Assembly (NCBI RefSeq): GCF_025345565.1 | Contig: NZ_CP054475.1 | Location: 3,062,006 to 3,126,005, forward strand | Direction of reading: 5' to 3' | From: Thalassolituus hydrocarboniclasticus | GTDB taxonomy: Bacteria; Pseudomonadota; Gammaproteobacteria; Pseudomonadales; Oceanobacteraceae | Length of the DNA stretch: 64,000 bases | In this document: positions 19,165-53,891 of the stretch, piece after piece | Layout: every line of letters starts with the position of its first letter | Position numbering within the stretch: position 1 is the first letter of the stretch | Translations under genes and position numbers: made by a program | The notes under the pieces: model-generated | Told to the model about the DNA's origin: nothing | Seen by the model: the letters and a program-made list of their open reading frames with translations, nothing else | Databases searched by the model: none

Positions 19165-19520
19165 GGGGATGATTAGGATTCGACGTTGATTACAAAGCTA
19201 TGGGTGCATGCCGAGAGTGTATAGCGATCTCGTAAATAAACGTTATACATAGTTATAGTCGCAAACGACGAAACTTACGCACTAGCGGCTTAAGCCCGCT
19301 TACCTCCGAACTCGGGTTCCTGTAGCCGGGGGACGAGGGCGACGTCTTACAGGATCGCCCGGATGCTTCGCTCGGAGCTGAAAGGTTAAACTTAATCGAG
19401 CTCGTTCTGAACGGCCTGCCCCTCGGCCCGTGACGAACTAAATCAATAGAGACGGCTAAGCATGTAGATCCTCTAGTGGAGGATTGGCGGACGCGGGTTC
19501 AAATCCCGCCATCTCCACCA
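19165..19520 (+). ncRNA. ssrA: Transfer-messenger RNA (tmRNA)
   Basis: About 356 nt. The 5' GGGGATG pairs with CATCTCC before the encoded 3' ACCA (ending 19520), and GACGCGGGTTCAAATCCCGC forms the T arm. The tag frame starts at the resume codon GCA (19261) and reads ANDETYALAA, stop TAA at 19291-19293; the degradation signal ends in LAA/ALAA as expected. Works with SmpB, encoded just upstream, to rescue stalled ribosomes and mark products for proteolysis. Confidence 0.98.
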
Positions 19521-25842: not shown

Positions 25843-26238
25843 TAGGGCCTGTCGACACTAAGTAAATCCGGCCTGCTGATAGCCAGTTTTTCTCAGAACA
25901 AGGAGAGAGGAGTGATATTGTCAGGAACATCCATGTTCCTGACCCTGCGGGCTTCGCGCCCATCTGCTCCTGCAGATGGGTAGCGGGCTAAATGAATGAC
26001 GAACGACGAAGTTGATGGGGAAAACTGGCCTTAGCCCGAAGGGTTATGGCTAAAAATCCCTCATCCTGCATTGCTGTTCGCTCGCTTAACCCGTTACCAA
26101 TCTGTCTGGAACAGATTGGCGTGCCAACCCCGAAGGGGGGAAGCACAGGGATGTGCTGAACATCCCACACTCTCAGCGCCTTGCCTGAGAAATTTTTAGC
26201 CGATAACAGGTCTGTTTAATTAGTGTCGACAGGCCCTA
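25843..26238. mobile_element. Hairpin-rich MITE-like element with perfect terminal inverted repeats
   Basis: The ends are TAGGGCCTGTCGACACTAA (25843-25861) and its exact complement (26220-26238), extending to 23 of 24 bases with one mismatch. The outer TA pairs are a possible 2-bp target duplication. No transposase fits inside. The interior contains perfect stems: TCAGGAACAT/ATGTTCCTGA (25921-25942), CCCATCTGC/GCAGATGGG (25959-25980), CGGGCTAA/TTAGCCCG (25984-26038), CCAATCTGT/ACAGATTGG (26097-26119), GGGATGT/ACATCCC (26148-26166), and a long-range GGCTAAAAAT/ATTTTTAGCC (26048-26201). Most of the element is therefore paired. It supplies the last six codons and stop of the next gene. Family not identified. 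Confidence 0.75.
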
Positions 26239-26662
26239 GCAATGGGTCCAGTTCATCATTCAGTTCAAAACCTTCTTCTTTTAACCACGCCAAAGCGGCA
26301 TCAACACTGCTGAACGCCCGGCGCTGAAAGCCCTGATCCGATTCAGCGACCATATCCTCAAGCTGCAGTTTTTTCAGTAACGATGGTTGGTACACATGGG
26401 CTGCGCGCCGCAGACCATGCCCGATGCACCAATCCACCAGCGCCTCAATCACCGGCCCCATTTCCGGTACGCCTAACTGCCACTCATCGAGCAAAACCAT
26501 ATGCCCCCAGGGCGCTGAAGCCAGCGCGGCGGCATGTTCGCGGAAGTGCCGGTCAAAGGATCTTGCGGCCTCTTCATTCCAGCTGCCTGATATACGGGCA
26601 ACCAGAATATTGCCGTTGGTGCAGAGCACAAAATCACCGTGTTGAATACGTGTATTGAGCAT
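26216..26662 (-). CDS. STAS-like small protein of unknown function
   Basis: 148 aa from ATG 26662, with GGGGG seven bases upstream; the frame opens earlier (26713) without a site. Alternating strands and helices (ILVARISGSWNEEAARSFDRH, then GHMVLLDEWQLGVPEM and SSVDAALAWLKEE) resemble SpoIIAA/STAS-like folds, but this is a weak structural guess. No signal peptide. The final residues GPVDTN and the stop codon are read from the right terminal repeat of the adjacent element, so the native C-terminus was probably different. Divergent from the photolyase operon. Confidence 0.7.
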   Translation of the reverse strand: MLNTRIQHGDFVLCTNGNILVARISGSWNEEAARSFDRHFREHAAALASAPWGHMVLLDEWQLGVPEMGPVIEALVDWCIGHGLRRAAHVYQPSLLKKLQLEDMVAESDQGFQRRAFSSVDAALAWLKEEGFELNDELDPLLGPVDTN

Positions 26663-26792
26663 ATAAACCCCCGATATGCTGCCATCCGGTAAGCATAGTT
26701 GAGCCACCATCAAGCAGCTGCACAGCCTGTAAAAAATAACTGACTCTCAGCATTCTCTCAGTACTGGCAATAGCCGCAAAAAACTATACACT

Positions 26793-26823: not shown

Positions 26824-28386
26824 ATGAAATATCTGGGCCTTATTCTGGCCGACCAGTTAACCCCGTCACTGGCCAGCCTGCGTACACTGAATCCGCAGCG
26901 GGACGTGCTGTTAATGGCCGAGGTCGCTGAAGAAGCCACCTACGTTGCCCACCATGTGCAGAAAATTGCCCTGCTGTTTTCTGCCATGCGTCACTTTGCT
27001 GAAGAATTAAGGCGTGCCGGCTGGACCGTGATCTACCGTCCGCTGGATGCACCGGATAATGACTACAGCCTGCTCGATGTCGTTCGCCGAACCCTGCAGG
27101 AACAGCAATGCAGTGGCCTGATGCTGACCCGCTGCGGTGAATACCGCCTGCAAACAGCGATGGATAATCAGTGGTCAGCAACCCTTGGCGTCCCGGTAAG
27201 CGTATTTGAAGACGACCGTTTTATCTGCCCGCCCGCCGACTTCGCGCGCTGGGCTGCCGGCCGCAAACAGCTGCGTATGGAATACTTTTACCGCGATATG
27301 CGGCGCAAAACCGGCCTGCTGATGGACGGAGACAAACCCGTCGGCGGGCAATGGAATTTCGATGCCGATAACCGCGCGGCCTACAAGGGCGAAATACCGG
27401 TACCGGCGCCGCTCAGTTTTACTCGCGATGCCATTGATGAAGAGGTGCTGACGCTGGTAAGCACCCGCTTCGCCGGGCCAGACAAGCGCCACCCCGGCCA
27501 GCTTCAACCCTTCCGCTGGGCGACCACACGTGAGCAGGCACTTACTGCGCTGCAGCATTTTATTCAGTACCGGCTGGCGCACTTCGGCCGTTATCAGGAC
27601 GCCATGGTCAGCCACAACAGTCTGGGCGAACGCGCCGATTTTATGTTTCACAGCCTGCTGTCGCCTTACCTCAACTGCGGCCTGCTGACCCCGCTGGAAG
27701 TGTGCAAAGCCGCCGAAGCCGCTTATTACCATGGTCAGGCGCCGCTGGCGGCGGTGGAAGGCTTTATCCGCCAGATCATCGGCTGGCGCGAATACGTGCG
27801 CGGTATTTACTGGGCCTTTATGCCGGAGTACGCCGGGCGTAACAGCCAGCACAACGAGCGTGCGCTGCCCTGGTTTTACTGGAGCGGAAAAACGCAGATG
27901 CACTGCATGAGAGAGTGCTTCCGCACCACCTTCGCTAATGCCTACGCGCACCATATTCAGCGCTTAATGGTGACGGGCAATTTCGCCCTGCTCGCCGGAA
28001 TCCGCCCGCAGGAGATTTGCGACTGGTATCTGGCCGTCTACGCCGACGCCTACGACTGGGTGGAGCTACCGAATACGCTGGGCATGATGATGCACGCCGA
28101 CGGCGGCCTTTTGGGCAGCAAACCCTACTGCGCCTCCGGCAGTTACATTGCCCGTCAGTCCGACTACTGCGGCCATTGCCGCTACAACGTGAAAACCAGC
28201 GAGCAGCCCGACAGCTGCCCGTTCAACAGCCTGTACTGGCACTTTTTAATCCGCCACCGCGACAGCTTCGCACGTAATCCGCGCATGGCCATGATGTACC
28301 GCAGCTACGACCGTATGGCGCCAGCCAAACAGCAGGCAATTCTGGCTCGCGCAGAGCACTGTCTGATTCATCTGGAGACGCTGTAA
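26824..28386 (+). CDS. Iron-sulfur bacterial photolyase/cryptochrome (FeS-BCP, PhrB/CryB type)
   Basis: 520 aa. FAD-containing photolyase of the family that includes Agrobacterium PhrB, a (6-4) photolyase. N-terminal Rossmann-like antenna domain (1-130), linker, and C-terminal helical FAD domain with SHNSLGERADFMFHSLLSPYLN split across the usual helices and IGWREYVRGIYWAFMP. The four [4Fe-4S] ligands are readable as Cys361, Cys449, Cys452 and Cys465; each is exactly 11 residues beyond the PhrB ligands 350, 438, 441 and 454. First gene of a four-gene unit; 2 bp separate it from the DUF2256 gene. Confidence 0.93.
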   Translation: MKYLGLILADQLTPSLASLRTLNPQRDVLLMAEVAEEATYVAHHVQKIALLFSAMRHFAEELRRAGWTVIYRPLDAPDNDYSLLDVVRRTLQEQQCSGLMLTRCGEYRLQTAMDNQWSATLGVPVSVFEDDRFICPPADFARWAAGRKQLRMEYFYRDMRRKTGLLMDGDKPVGGQWNFDADNRAAYKGEIPVPAPLSFTRDAIDEEVLTLVSTRFAGPDKRHPGQLQPFRWATTREQALTALQHFIQYRLAHFGRYQDAMVSHNSLGERADFMFHSLLSPYLNCGLLTPLEVCKAAEAAYYHGQAPLAAVEGFIRQIIGWREYVRGIYWAFMPEYAGRNSQHNERALPWFYWSGKTQMHCMRECFRTTFANAYAHHIQRLMVTGNFALLAGIRPQEICDWYLAVYADAYDWVELPNTLGMMMHADGGLLGSKPYCASGSYIARQSDYCGHCRYNVKTSEQPDSCPFNSLYWHFLIRHRDSFARNPRMAMMYRSYDRMAPAKQQAILARAEHCLIHLETL

Positions 28387-28388
28387 CC

Positions 28389-28589
28389 ATGGGCCTGCTG
28401 AGTGGTTTCCGTAACCCCCATAACCTGCCGGTAAAAACCTGTGCGCACTGTGGCCGGCCGTTCTGCTGGCGGCGCAAATGGGCGCGCAGCTGGGACGAAG
28501 TGAAGTACTGCAGCAAAGGCTGCAAACACAGGGCACAAAAAACACCGGCCAATATATGCGCCGCCGCTTCCGTGGAGGATGAATTCTGA
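28389..28589 (+). CDS. DUF2256 small zinc-ribbon-like protein
   Basis: 66 aa. NLPVKTCAHCGRPFCWRRKW and WDEVKYCSKGC match DUF2256. Cys18-Cys21 and Cys41-Cys45 could bind one metal ion; Cys26 is extra. Basic and probably cytosolic. Function is not known for the family, but it commonly lies next to or is fused with photolyase/cryptochrome genes. Here it is locked between two of them, 2 bp after the first and overlapping the next by one base (TGATG), so it is translated with them. Confidence 0.9.
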   Translation: MGLLSGFRNPHNLPVKTCAHCGRPFCWRRKWARSWDEVKYCSKGCKHRAQKTPANICAAASVEDEF

Positions 28590-30013
28590 TGACGTCCCGC
28601 CCCATCAATCTGGTGTGGCTGCGCAACGATCTGCGCCTGCACGACCACCCCATTTTTCAGTACCTGGTTGCTCAGGGTGAATGCCCGGGTATGGCGGTGG
28701 TATTTATCCTGCCGCAACACTGGCAGCAGCCGACGACAGAATATCCGGGCCTGACCCGGCTGGGACTGGCCAAAGCACGCTTCCTGCGCGCCTGCCTGAT
28801 TGACGTGCAGCGCAGTCTGTATCAGCAGAATATCCGCCTCAGCCTGCTCGGCGGCGATCCGGTCAGTCTGCTGCGTGACTGGTATGCCCAACAGCCGTTT
28901 CACCTGCACACCAGCGCCGCTCAGGCGCCGGAAGAAGAACACTGGCTGAATGCCATTGCCGATTTTGCACCGGTCAGCACCTACGACACCCAGACCCTGT
29001 TCAGCCCGCAACAGCTGGCGGAATTGCTCAGCACAGAAAACTGGCCCGACAGCTACAGCGCCTTCGGCCGCTGGCTCGATAAGCATGGCTTACCCGTCGC
29101 AGCGCCGCTGCCACCCACCATACTCAGTGCCGATCCCCTCGAAGCGCCGCTCAAAGCCGCCGTACAGTGGCCGGATCATCAGCTGCATCAGGTGCCGTTC
29201 TGGGCCGGGCGCGTTCCGGCAACGACCTTTCATGGCGGCGAAGACGCCGGATTACGCCATCTGGCAGCCTATCTGGGGCGGGAAAATGCCATTCGTCACT
29301 ACCGTGATACACGTAATCAGCTCTGCACGGCGCCGCTCAGTCAGGCTGACAATCCTTACGCCGGCAGCCGCTTTGCCAGCCAGCTCAGCCCCTGGCTGGC
29401 CTGGGGCGCATTATCAGTACGTAAGGTATGGGCCGATATTGTGCACTGGGAGAGTCTGCATGGCGCAAGCGAACACAGTAGCTGGCTGAAAAAAGAACTG
29501 CTGTGGCGCGAGTATTTTCACTGGACGCTGCGCCTCAAAGGATCTGCGCTGTTCCGTAACCCCGCACCTCAGCCGTTCGCTGACACACGCTGGCAGGCCT
29601 GGTGTGAAGCGCGCACCGGCTATCCGGTAATTGATGCAGGCCTGCGTGAGCTGATCCACACCGGCTTCAGCTCCAACCGTATGCGTCAGTGGCTGGCGAG
29701 CTTTTTTATCCATGAACTGAAGCTCGACTGGCGCCTTGGCGCACGCTTCTTTGAGCAACACCTGATCGATGCTGATGTCGCCAGCAACTGGGGCAACTGG
29801 GCCTATATCGCCGGTTGCGGTCAGGACCCGCGCGGCGGGCGCTGTTTTAACCTCAACAAACAGCTGGAACGGTACGACCCGCACCTCACGCATCTGCAGC
29901 AATGGCTGCCGGAACTGGGCAGCGTCACCCTGAGTCAGGTGCAGCAACATCAGAGCAGTGGCCCGACGCTGCCTTTGTGGCCGGCACCGCTCCCCTTGCC
30001 AGCAGCAACCTGA
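28589..30013 (+). CDS. Cryptochrome DASH
   Basis: 474 aa. Blue-light FAD protein; DASH members repair cyclobutane dimers mainly in single-stranded DNA and may signal. Antenna domain opens LVWLRNDLRLHDHPIFQYL. The FAD domain has SQLSPWLAWGALSVRKVW and KELLWREYFHWTLRLKG, and the DASH signature NWGNWAYIAGCGQDPRGGR followed by FNLNKQ. GGAGG (28574-28578) lies ahead of the ATG, which overlaps the DUF2256 stop. Confidence 0.93.
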   Translation: MTSRPINLVWLRNDLRLHDHPIFQYLVAQGECPGMAVVFILPQHWQQPTTEYPGLTRLGLAKARFLRACLIDVQRSLYQQNIRLSLLGGDPVSLLRDWYAQQPFHLHTSAAQAPEEEHWLNAIADFAPVSTYDTQTLFSPQQLAELLSTENWPDSYSAFGRWLDKHGLPVAAPLPPTILSADPLEAPLKAAVQWPDHQLHQVPFWAGRVPATTFHGGEDAGLRHLAAYLGRENAIRHYRDTRNQLCTAPLSQADNPYAGSRFASQLSPWLAWGALSVRKVWADIVHWESLHGASEHSSWLKKELLWREYFHWTLRLKGSALFRNPAPQPFADTRWQAWCEARTGYPVIDAGLRELIHTGFSSNRMRQWLASFFIHELKLDWRLGARFFEQHLIDADVASNWGNWAYIAGCGQDPRGGRCFNLNKQLERYDPHLTHLQQWLPELGSVTLSQVQQHQSSGPTLPLWPAPLPLPAAT

Positions 30014-30023
30014 GGCGCCGTTG

Positions 30024-31583
30024 ATGCTGCATCTGGTTTGGTTAAAACGTGATCTTCGCCTGTACGACCATGCCGCGCTGACGGCTGCTATCAGCGCCGT
30101 ACACCAGCAGGGTGGCCGCCTTGCTTTGCTGTACGTCATCGAACCCGGCGTCTGGAGCCAGCCCGACAGCAGCCTGCGCCAGTGGCAGTTTGTGCGCGAG
30201 TCGCTGCTCGATCTGCAACAGCAGTTAGCGCAGAACTCGGCACTATGGTCAGTCGCCGGTAATATGCCCGATGTTCTTTCCGCACTGCTGCAGCAACTGG
30301 AGCCTCAGGGGCAATCCTTTACGCTCTACAGCCATGAAGAAACCGGTAACCTGTTCAGCTACCGCCGCGATCAGGCCGTCAGGCAGTGGTGCCGGAAACA
30401 CCAAATAACCTGGCATGAGTACGCCCAGAATGGCGTACGCCGTGCCAGCCGCAGCCGTCCCCACAGTCGCGATGACTGGGCTGCCCACTGGGCCGCGTTT
30501 ATGGAACAGGCGCAACACGCAATGCCGTTGCTCAGCGAGTGTCCGTGGCTGCCCTGCCCGCTGCCGGATGCATTGCCGGTAACAGCACTGCCCACCAACC
30601 TCGGTTACGATCAGACACCCTGCCCCGGTCGCCAACCCGGTGGGCGCAGTGCTGCACTGGCCCTACTCAGCAGTTTTCTGCACAGCCGCGGGCGTTTTTA
30701 CCGTGGCTCATTAGGCTCACCGCTGACGGCCGAACACCATGCTTCACGCTTAAGTCCTTATCTGGCCTGGGGCTGCCTGAGTGTGCGTGAAGTGCTGCAG
30801 GCGGTGCGCGCCGCCCAACAACAGGCACCGGATACACGCTGGCGCAACAGTCTGGCGGCATTCGAATCACGCTTATGGTGGCACTGCCATTTTATTCAGA
30901 AGCTGGAAGACGAACCGCTGCAGGAACAACAACCGCTGCATCCGGCCTGGGCCGGAGTACGGCAGTTTAACGCGGCGTGGTACGCCGCCTGGGCTAACGG
31001 CCAGACGGGCTGGCCACTGGCCGATGCCTGCATGAAGTACTTACAGCACTATGGCTGGCTCAACTTCCGCATGCGCGCGATGCTTATGTCACTGGCCAGC
31101 TACCCGCTGTGGCTGCCCTGGCAACAACCGGCGCTGCATCTGGCGCGCTGGTTTACCGACTATGAACCCGGCATTCATTACCCGCAGGTGCAGATGCAGT
31201 CAGGCACCACCGGCATTAACCCGCCACGTATGTACAACCCCACCCTGCAGGCACAGAAACAAGACCCGCAGGGCGTCTTTATCCGCCGCTGGCTGCCGCA
31301 ACTGGCACAGGTGCCGGACAGCTGGATTCATCAGCCCTGGGGCATGAGTCAGCGCTTACAGGCACAGTGTGGGGTGACGATTGGCCGCGATTACCCGGCG
31401 CCGCTGGTCGATTTTGAGCAGGCCACCCGGCTGGCACGCGAGCATATCCGCCAGTTACGCCAGCAACCGCAATATTTCAGCAATGCCGCCGACATTGGTC
31501 ATCAACATGGCTCGCGCAAACGCCGTGCCGCTGCCAGTAGCCGCAGAAGAACCATCAACCCCGACCAGCTCAGGCTGTTCTGA
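30024..31583 (+). CDS. Atypical photolyase/cryptochrome-like FAD protein
   Basis: 519 aa from ATG 30024, ten bases after the DASH stop; the frame is open further left inside that gene. N-terminal photolyase domain LVWLKRDLRLYDHAALTAA; the FAD domain has SRLSPYLAWGCLSVREVLQ and FESRLWWHCHFIQKLEDEP. Instead of the usual SNWGxW stretch it reads DYEPGIHYPQVQMQSGTTG followed by INPPRMYNP, a pattern typical of a separate photolyase-related branch whose substrate is poorly defined. The C-terminal 40 residues are basic (GSRKRRAAASSRRRT), possibly for DNA contact. Last gene of the light-repair unit. Confidence 0.85.
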   Translation: MLHLVWLKRDLRLYDHAALTAAISAVHQQGGRLALLYVIEPGVWSQPDSSLRQWQFVRESLLDLQQQLAQNSALWSVAGNMPDVLSALLQQLEPQGQSFTLYSHEETGNLFSYRRDQAVRQWCRKHQITWHEYAQNGVRRASRSRPHSRDDWAAHWAAFMEQAQHAMPLLSECPWLPCPLPDALPVTALPTNLGYDQTPCPGRQPGGRSAALALLSSFLHSRGRFYRGSLGSPLTAEHHASRLSPYLAWGCLSVREVLQAVRAAQQQAPDTRWRNSLAAFESRLWWHCHFIQKLEDEPLQEQQPLHPAWAGVRQFNAAWYAAWANGQTGWPLADACMKYLQHYGWLNFRMRAMLMSLASYPLWLPWQQPALHLARWFTDYEPGIHYPQVQMQSGTTGINPPRMYNPTLQAQKQDPQGVFIRRWLPQLAQVPDSWIHQPWGMSQRLQAQCGVTIGRDYPAPLVDFEQATRLAREHIRQLRQQPQYFSNAADIGHQHGSRKRRAAASSRRRTINPDQLRLF

Positions 31584-53458: not shown

Positions 53459-53587
53459 ATCCGGTATGCAACCGCCAGCCTCCAAACCCTAAATGAATTA
53501 TTTTCAAACCAACCATGTGGATAATTCACTGCCTTTTGTACCAGCGCTATTGACCCATCGCACAGGGGTCTATACCCTTCGCGCTTT

Positions 53588-53778
53588 CAGGTGCCCTCAG
53601 CCTTTTTACTGACGAGGGTTAAACGGGAAGTCTGGTGTCGTGTGTTGTTACCGCCAATCCAGCGCTGCCCCCGCAACGGTGATCGACCATACTGACAGCG
53701 TTATGCCACTGTGCTCTGCATGGGAAGGTGTTGTCAGCGAGCTAATGCTCAGGTCGTAAGCCCGGATACCGGCCTGAA
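53588..53778 (+). promoter_or_regulatory. Cobalamin (adenosylcobalamin) riboswitch
   Basis: About 190 nt ahead of btuB. Core elements in order: AGGTGCCC and GAGGGTTAAACGGGAA, then CTGCCCCCGCAACGGTGAT and the B12 box AGCCCGGATACCGGCCTG (53759-53776). Complementary stems and the order match the class I cobalamin riboswitch. Binding of coenzyme B12 would shut off btuB expression. The 43-base region before it (from 53545) and the 110 bases to the btuB start include the promoter and the expression platform. Confidence 0.95.
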
Positions 53779-53891
53779 TAACGATACTGACGTTGCGGTG
53801 GGCGACGGAGGGTGATCGCAAACCGTTGCCTTACTGCAGCGCACCTTGCTTTTTACGCCTCCGCCACTGCAACCCTGTTTTGGGTTTGCGG

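Follow-up and report, generated by a model that had tools for sequence, protein, structure and literature searches.

The insertion described here (Table 1) lies in a window of Thalassolituus hydrocarboniclasticus DNA, by which we mean the whole stretch of 64,000 bp that was analysed, and is one copy of a gene-free MITE family that extends across the order and occurs in many relatives of Pseudomonas. Members of this family differ in their letters but agree in the shape of the element and in the pairing of its ends, so that folding may be a precondition of the jump. The reading that we favour, with modest confidence, is of a MITE of an order-wide family that is moved in trans by IS427-like transposases and that needs to fold for its transposition. 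In DDE transposons, the two inverted ends are generally taken to be separate binding sites in double-stranded DNA, for which pairing with one another is not needed. In this element, the pairing of the ends is better conserved than their sequence. If folding is indeed required, the strong folds of bacterial MITEs would have an explanation that is open to test, and the persistence of a gene-free element across the order could be put down to changes of its ends.

The insertion is 396 bp long with both TAs and 392 bp between them. The 19-mer TAGGGCCTGTCGACACTAA is found at 25843-25861 (+) and at 26220-26238 (-) with 0 mismatches. These are its only two matches in the 64-kb window at up to 3 mismatches, and 100 shuffles gave none, which bears out the perfect terminal inverted repeats seen in the initial annotation of this DNA. 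The stems it named are also all present. An inverted-repeat search returned 25920-25930/25933-25943, 25959-25967/25972-25980, 25984-25991/26031-26038, 26097-26105/26111-26119 and the long-range pair 26048-26063/26186-26201, and a GGGATGT...ACATCCC stem at 26148-26166 was read from the sequence by eye. A transcript of either strand had been expected to be highly folded, and the window copy does fold far better than its shuffles (z of -12.95 on the plus strand and -11.21 on the minus strand, with 0 of 100 shuffles as good).

No ORF of at least 80 aa lies inside the element. It is flanked by two convergent ORFs, and only the minus-strand ORF 26216-26713 extends into it, terminating within the right end. 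This ORF has no Pfam match, and its last codons and stop are supplied by the element; the C-terminus of the protein may have been altered through the insertion. Adjoining the element, at 26824-31580 (+), are three neighbouring photolyase-superfamily genes (PF04244; PF00875+PF03441 twice). A tmRNA gene (19165-19520) and a cobalamin riboswitch (53571-53791) are located elsewhere in the window.

Table 1. Parts of the element, with positions in the window.
Feature	Position	Strand	Basis or remark
Whole insertion, both TA copies included	25843..26238	+	oriented as family alignment
Left target TA copy	25843..25844	.	empty site L208 with single TA
Right target TA copy	26237..26238	.	empty site L208 with single TA
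Terminal stem P1, left side	25845..25872	+	order-wide 28-column alignment; conserved block is the outer 9 positions
Terminal stem P1, right side	26209..26236	+	order-wide alignment
Arm A-B, 5' side (A)	25882..25895	+	inverted repeat I5; conserved fold
Arm A-B, 3' side (B)	26016..26029	+	inverted repeat and conserved fold
Optional cassette 1, 62 bp, three hairpins	25920..25981	+	comparison of copies
Mini-hairpin CCCGAAGGG, between the two arms	26035..26043	+	
Arm C-D, 5' side (C)	26048..26063	+	inverted repeat I3; covariation
Arm C-D, 3' side (D)	26186..26201	+	inverted repeat; covariation
Optional cassette 2, 68 bp, three hairpins, replaces core GG	26097..26164	+	

The host genome (G000, 4.07 Mb in one contig) contains 13 full copies, none of them within a long ORF by a simple ORF reading. 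Nine are 268 bp long with the TAs included, three are 329-334 bp, and the window copy is 396 bp. Matches to the element were found in 13 of 55 related genomes. A 25-base core pattern run against one genome each for 84,980 species matched 54 stretches, and the species with matches include Thalassolituus alkanivorans, T. marinus, Oceanobacter mangrovi and an Oleibacter MAG. The search for further copies that had been proposed thus shows that the element is no single-copy sequence. Viral contigs held no exact match to the pattern. The window element had no match in the plasmids searched, nor did the copy from G322, and the copy from G085 had none in phages; the G186 copy matched three plasmid records. 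Copies of 265 bp flanked by TA are found on Azotobacter chroococcum and Pseudomonas aeruginosa plasmid DNA.

The element inserted at a TA and duplicated it. For each of the 13 host copies, the two flanks (~70 bp per side) were joined and sought in nine genomes, the host's own among them. A single TA stands at the junction in 12 of 20 candidate empty sites, which cover 8 of the 13 host insertions, and the window copy's own site is empty in the sister genome G008 (L208), again with a single TA. This is the type of empty site that the initial annotation had suggested looking for. Seven of the other eight candidates have GA, CA or CG, and one (L212) is poorly aligned. The insertion target is CTAG-like: the base before the TA is C in 59 cases, T in 33, A in 6 and G in 2, and the base after it is G in 58, A in 49, C in 4 and T in 2. 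The left TA is often CA (the right TA being TG) in host copies, among them L004, L011, L012 and L013. Three of these (L004, L011, L012) carry CA for the left TA, and their empty sites have TA. At L089 (G006:C20) the element landed in the TA of another element's end, and a remnant of that end is left beside it.

A covariance model of the right arm was built from 26 sequences (123 columns). At E <= 1e-4 it was matched in 52 of 293 sampled genomes and in 32 of the 118 genera of the order. The same model also matches the left arm on the opposite strand (L356 379-500 (-)), so that the arms may have arisen by an old inverted duplication. We examined 68 distant loci, 28 from the search of the order with the right-arm model and 40 further ones, and elements with matched ends are present in 57. 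The limit of 15 set for the end search was attained by 2 of 162 decoy windows and a value of 17 by none; all 57 elements reach 17. The 11 loci that failed the end search are L231, L239, L241, L245, L253, L259, L264, L290, L291, L295 and L296, and three of them (L231, L241, L253) match at 14 of 14 end bases under a looser search. From the genus set, 5 of 87 extracted candidates were left out: three were false, one was cut by a contig end, and one was L033 at 1017, which resembles a degenerate or composite copy.

The conserved fold is that of a 268-bp core, and consists of the terminal stem P1 and two arms (A-B and C-D). RNAalifold folds both the Thalassolituus set (82 rows, 15 with Oceanobacter-type ends) and the order-wide set (72 rows, of which 57 are distant) into the two-arm structure. 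Order-wide pairing is higher than in shuffled alignments, which leave relatedness in place and whose figures are not probabilities: 93.0% (shuffled 70.0%) in P1, where boundaries located by complementarity partly select for or raise the pairing, and, unaffected by this, 87.2% (66.0%) in A-B and 92.1% (73.9%) in C-D. Two-sided changes are seen at 25 of 28 pairs in P1 (shuffled mean 18.8, maximum 23), 20 of 20 in A-B (15.7, 18) and 24 of 26 in C-D (15.5, 19). The covariation score of the arm alignment is 0.248, against 0.135 when shuffled and at most 0.110 when slid; further pair types are fewer than in the shuffles (28 vs. 32.3). The covarying stem changes that had been suggested as a check are thus found in both arms, order-wide. 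Not all of the stems named in the initial annotation belong to this fold. The long-range pair 26048/26201 does, as part of C-D, the stem 25984/26038 lies outside it, and four of the six lie in optional cassettes. Stem loss in other copies had been named as a point against the annotation's proposal, and such loss is the case for those four in most copies; the long-range C-D pair, in contrast, is retained.

At lowest energy, the window copy forms one long branched hairpin instead of the two arms, as do cassette-free Thalassolituus copies folded singly. For the Thalassolituus consensus, the long hairpin has -131.4 kcal/mol vs. -109.6 kcal/mol for the two arms. The two-arm fold is lowest in two Oceanobacter-type copies folded singly and in the Azotobacter copy. 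We rejected the long hairpin as the conserved fold: 9 of 71 hairpin-only pairs have double changes (shuffled mean 7.4, maximum 12), as compared with 20 of 67 pairs of the two-arm fold (shuffled mean 4.3, maximum 10). Order-wide, the best cross-arm stretches are 73-80% paired, and the long hairpin may form as an alternative.

The window copy is the 268-bp core with both cassettes added. One or both are missing from most copies, and cassette 1 is matched in the host genome by the window copy alone. By eye, the cassettes are inverted relatives of each other at symmetric places in the two arms. Cassette content differs in four of eight orthologous insertion pairs (L003/L044, L006/L079, L008/L075 and L034/L132), in which there are 4, 14, 6 and 5 other differences, respectively. 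An optional cassette that is homologous by eye stands at the cassette 2 place in G246, a member of another family of the order. Element lengths read in that genome, TA included, are 57, 243, 267, 282, 332 and 347 bp. The 57-bp forms (TA included; G246:C1:366529-366581 and 1797434-1797486) are nearly just the two ends. The three-hairpin cassettes would be optional modules, probably transferred between copies by recombination.

Beyond its outer 9 bp, P1 varies among copies, yet it stays paired within each. Order-wide identity is 0.94 in P1 columns 1-9 and 0.63 in columns 10-28, and the latter are paired at 90% (G.U counted) vs. the 59% expected for independent ends. Within 15 genomes, P1 positions 10-28 have on average 2.95 mismatches between a copy's own ends (40 copies) vs. 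6.47 between copies (74 comparisons). Identical 16-bp ends are found in 47 of 65 GGGCCTG-type copies of the genus set, and in 24% when different copies are compared. The family also has the alternative end sequences GGGGGCGTTCTCAATT and GGGCGTGTTGAACATTC, the first of which is on Oceanobacter copies and on L270. In G147, L270 and L238 share 78% of the interior and 53-56% of each end. Well-supported branches of a tree of the interior, in which the bootstrap is not settled, require the CG end type to have changed at least 4 times. A bolder reading, which we consider possible but less likely than not, is of an order-wide, gene-free transposon family that a DDE transposase can move only if the element folds on itself. 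Its ends would pair over ~28 bp, with stem sequences that differ among copies and match within each, and could be swapped wholesale (L270 vs. L238) while the folded core persists.

In the mechanism that we propose, the outer ~9 bp would be recognised by IS427-like transposases acting in trans. The remainder of the terminal stem and the arms would need to be folded, as extruded or single-stranded DNA, during transposition. Folding would bring both ends together, or would allow correction of one end by reference to its partner. The same ends could belong to an ordinary MITE in which just the outer ends matter, template switching in replication repairs P1, and the fold is functionless; we regard this as possible but doubtful. 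Template-switch correction of quasipalindromes occurs in bacteria, and the near strand symmetry of the mismatches suits a process at the DNA level. A two-arm topology that is kept order-wide, with covariation in both arms, argues against a functionless fold. So do the eight orthologous insertion pairs (one of them from Oceanobacter), which have 25 one-sided changes at paired positions (3 in P1) and 0 compensatory changes, though only about 3 would be expected at the ratios seen in other pairs of copies. Those other pairs (1295, with up to 25 differences, and not independent of one another) have means of 7.15 for one-sided changes (1.65 in P1) and of 1.38 for compensatory ones (1.07 in P1). The comparison of orthologues is a weak test because only 3 of the 25 changes are in P1, the site of most compensatory changes elsewhere. 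Since orthologues are without compensatory changes and different insertions have them, there is a hint, from a small sample, that pairing is kept at transposition, as the folding requirement would have it.

The initial annotation had suggested that the element carries a structured RNA. A plus-strand transcript with a selected role (3'-end stabiliser, terminator or regulator), spread by transposition, is in our view unlikely. The strong RNA folding of the window copy would suit such a role, as would the closeness of 7 of the 13 host copies to an ORF's 3' end (20 bp at most, by a simple ORF reading) and the 91:32 ratio of G.U to A.C in arm A-B. A selected RNA is expected to show a strong excess of G.U over A.C. 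This ratio is 66:49 in P1 and 86:92 in C-D, so that two of the three stems have little or no excess, and for the core pairs in 67 rows of the genus set it is 61:54; these figures speak, if not firmly, against an RNA cargo. At paired positions overall, the ratio is 243:173 (share 0.58); a tRNA control gave 5:0 in 72 cells, too small a sample. By the same simple reading, 5 host copies have tandem ORFs as neighbours, 4 have convergent and 4 divergent ones, which also speaks against a transcript with a selected role. No Rfam family reached its gathering score over the element. A known RNA family was rejected, the sole weak match, PhotoRC-I, being at 13.7 bits, far under the 45 needed. A DNA-level fold fits better than RNA because G.U is only slightly favoured over A.C, with arm A-B as a reservation.

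The element has the same type of ends as an IS427-like insertion sequence of the IS5 family. A PF01609 search of three Thalassolituus genomes gave 0, 0 and 1 hits, the one without matching ends, and by this search no IS with matching ends is present in the host or the two sister genomes. Six of ten relatives had PF01609 hits. Among the 30 PF01609 loci fetched from relatives, one (L343 in G230) has both matching ends. It is an 808-bp IS between TAs with GGGCCTGTTCACACTAATT at both ends. Its two overlapping ORFs match PF13340 and PF01609, and an NCBIfam IS5 model was matched below the cut-off. Similar ends, e.g., GGGCGTGTTCACACTAA and GGGCCTGTTAACGCTAA, are found in 5 of 5 plasmid IS relatives of L343 that were read (60-69% identity). 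The accessible text of PMC3281130 describes IS427-group elements in which two ORFs overlap and the duplications are mostly of 2 bp. The element is like this group, as described there, and like L343 in its ends, TA flanks and 2-bp duplication, and differs from them in having no transposase gene and another interior. The interior of L343, the one IS compared, has no resemblance to 142 element copies (best blastn E of 0.98), and an origin of the element by internal deletion of an IS5/IS427 IS finds no support there. An IS630-type partner was also rejected; PF13358 was found in 1 of 10 genomes (G169, 6 hits) with unmatched ends, and is absent from the host. No pair spaced like an IS is present among the 100 of 111 end matches listed for G246. 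The window copy is probably immobile now, because PF01609 and PF13358, the families searched, are both absent from the host.

Movement of a folded single-stranded DNA by a site-specific recombinase, in the manner of attC and with the TA as a 2-bp crossover core, is highly improbable. The step from one TA in empty sites to two in occupied ones would agree with it, and integron attC sites also conserve structure over sequence. The ends, the TA and the CTAG-like target instead match an IS5-family transposon.

The initial annotation had described a non-autonomous element with TA-flanked inverted ends and structure beyond that of a plain MITE, and the copies, empty sites and covarying stems agree with this. 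Its view that the element does not match a MITE does not hold. Inverted ends, TA duplication, no genes and strong folds are the hallmarks of bacterial MITEs in the portions of PMC2229807 and PMC10969869 available to us. The element has inverted ends, a TA duplication, no transposase gene and many dispersed copies, and its ends are in common with an autonomous element in the G230 relative, not in the host or the two sister genomes. Its size (268-396 bp) is above the <200 bp given for bacterial MITEs in the available part of PMC2229807, and within the range of about 50-600 bp allowed in that of PMC6382973. The literature covered, mostly outside subscription journals, has among the matches listed neither this element nor a MITE with an order-wide interior fold and terminal stems that change in matched pairs.

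Several known elements are similar in part. As with ERIC, Correia/NEMIS and RUP elements, so far as the available text of PMC2229807 describes them, the element has inverted ends, TA, target duplication, no gene, a stable fold and dispersed copies. It is unlike them in its length of 268-396 bp, order-wide fold, matched-pair stem changes and optional cassettes. Pneumococcal BOX elements, likened here by their description in an excerpt of PMC3049150, are also composite, and contain a dispensable inner module whose fold is separate from that of the outer stem; in contrast to these, the three-hairpin cassettes are at symmetric places in the two arms and not in tandem arrays. TIMEs, the Tn3-derived 262-bp MITEs of Pseudomonas, share a near-constant length, variable core and stable fold, but Tn3-type ends are their own feature, according to the portion of PMC4133298 at hand. 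We rejected identity with a TIME, as the two copies that plasmid QKH54 carries take another fold and gave no model hit.

The element also has a likeness to REP/REPIN palindromes, as these are presented in the accessible part of PMC3116915, in that its end is also dispersed on its own; the whole element is far larger than these and has inverted ends with a TA duplication. Solitary 29-bp palindromes like GGGCCTGTTAACACTNATTAAACAGGCCC (<=3 mismatches), which corresponds to a folding of the element's right end onto itself, are scattered through Thalassolituus genomes. They are found at G000:C1:2759558-2759586 and eight other locations, and also at L131, L133, L140 and L153. Short forms that bear the end are 53 bp (L134, L140) and about 161 bp (L147) long.
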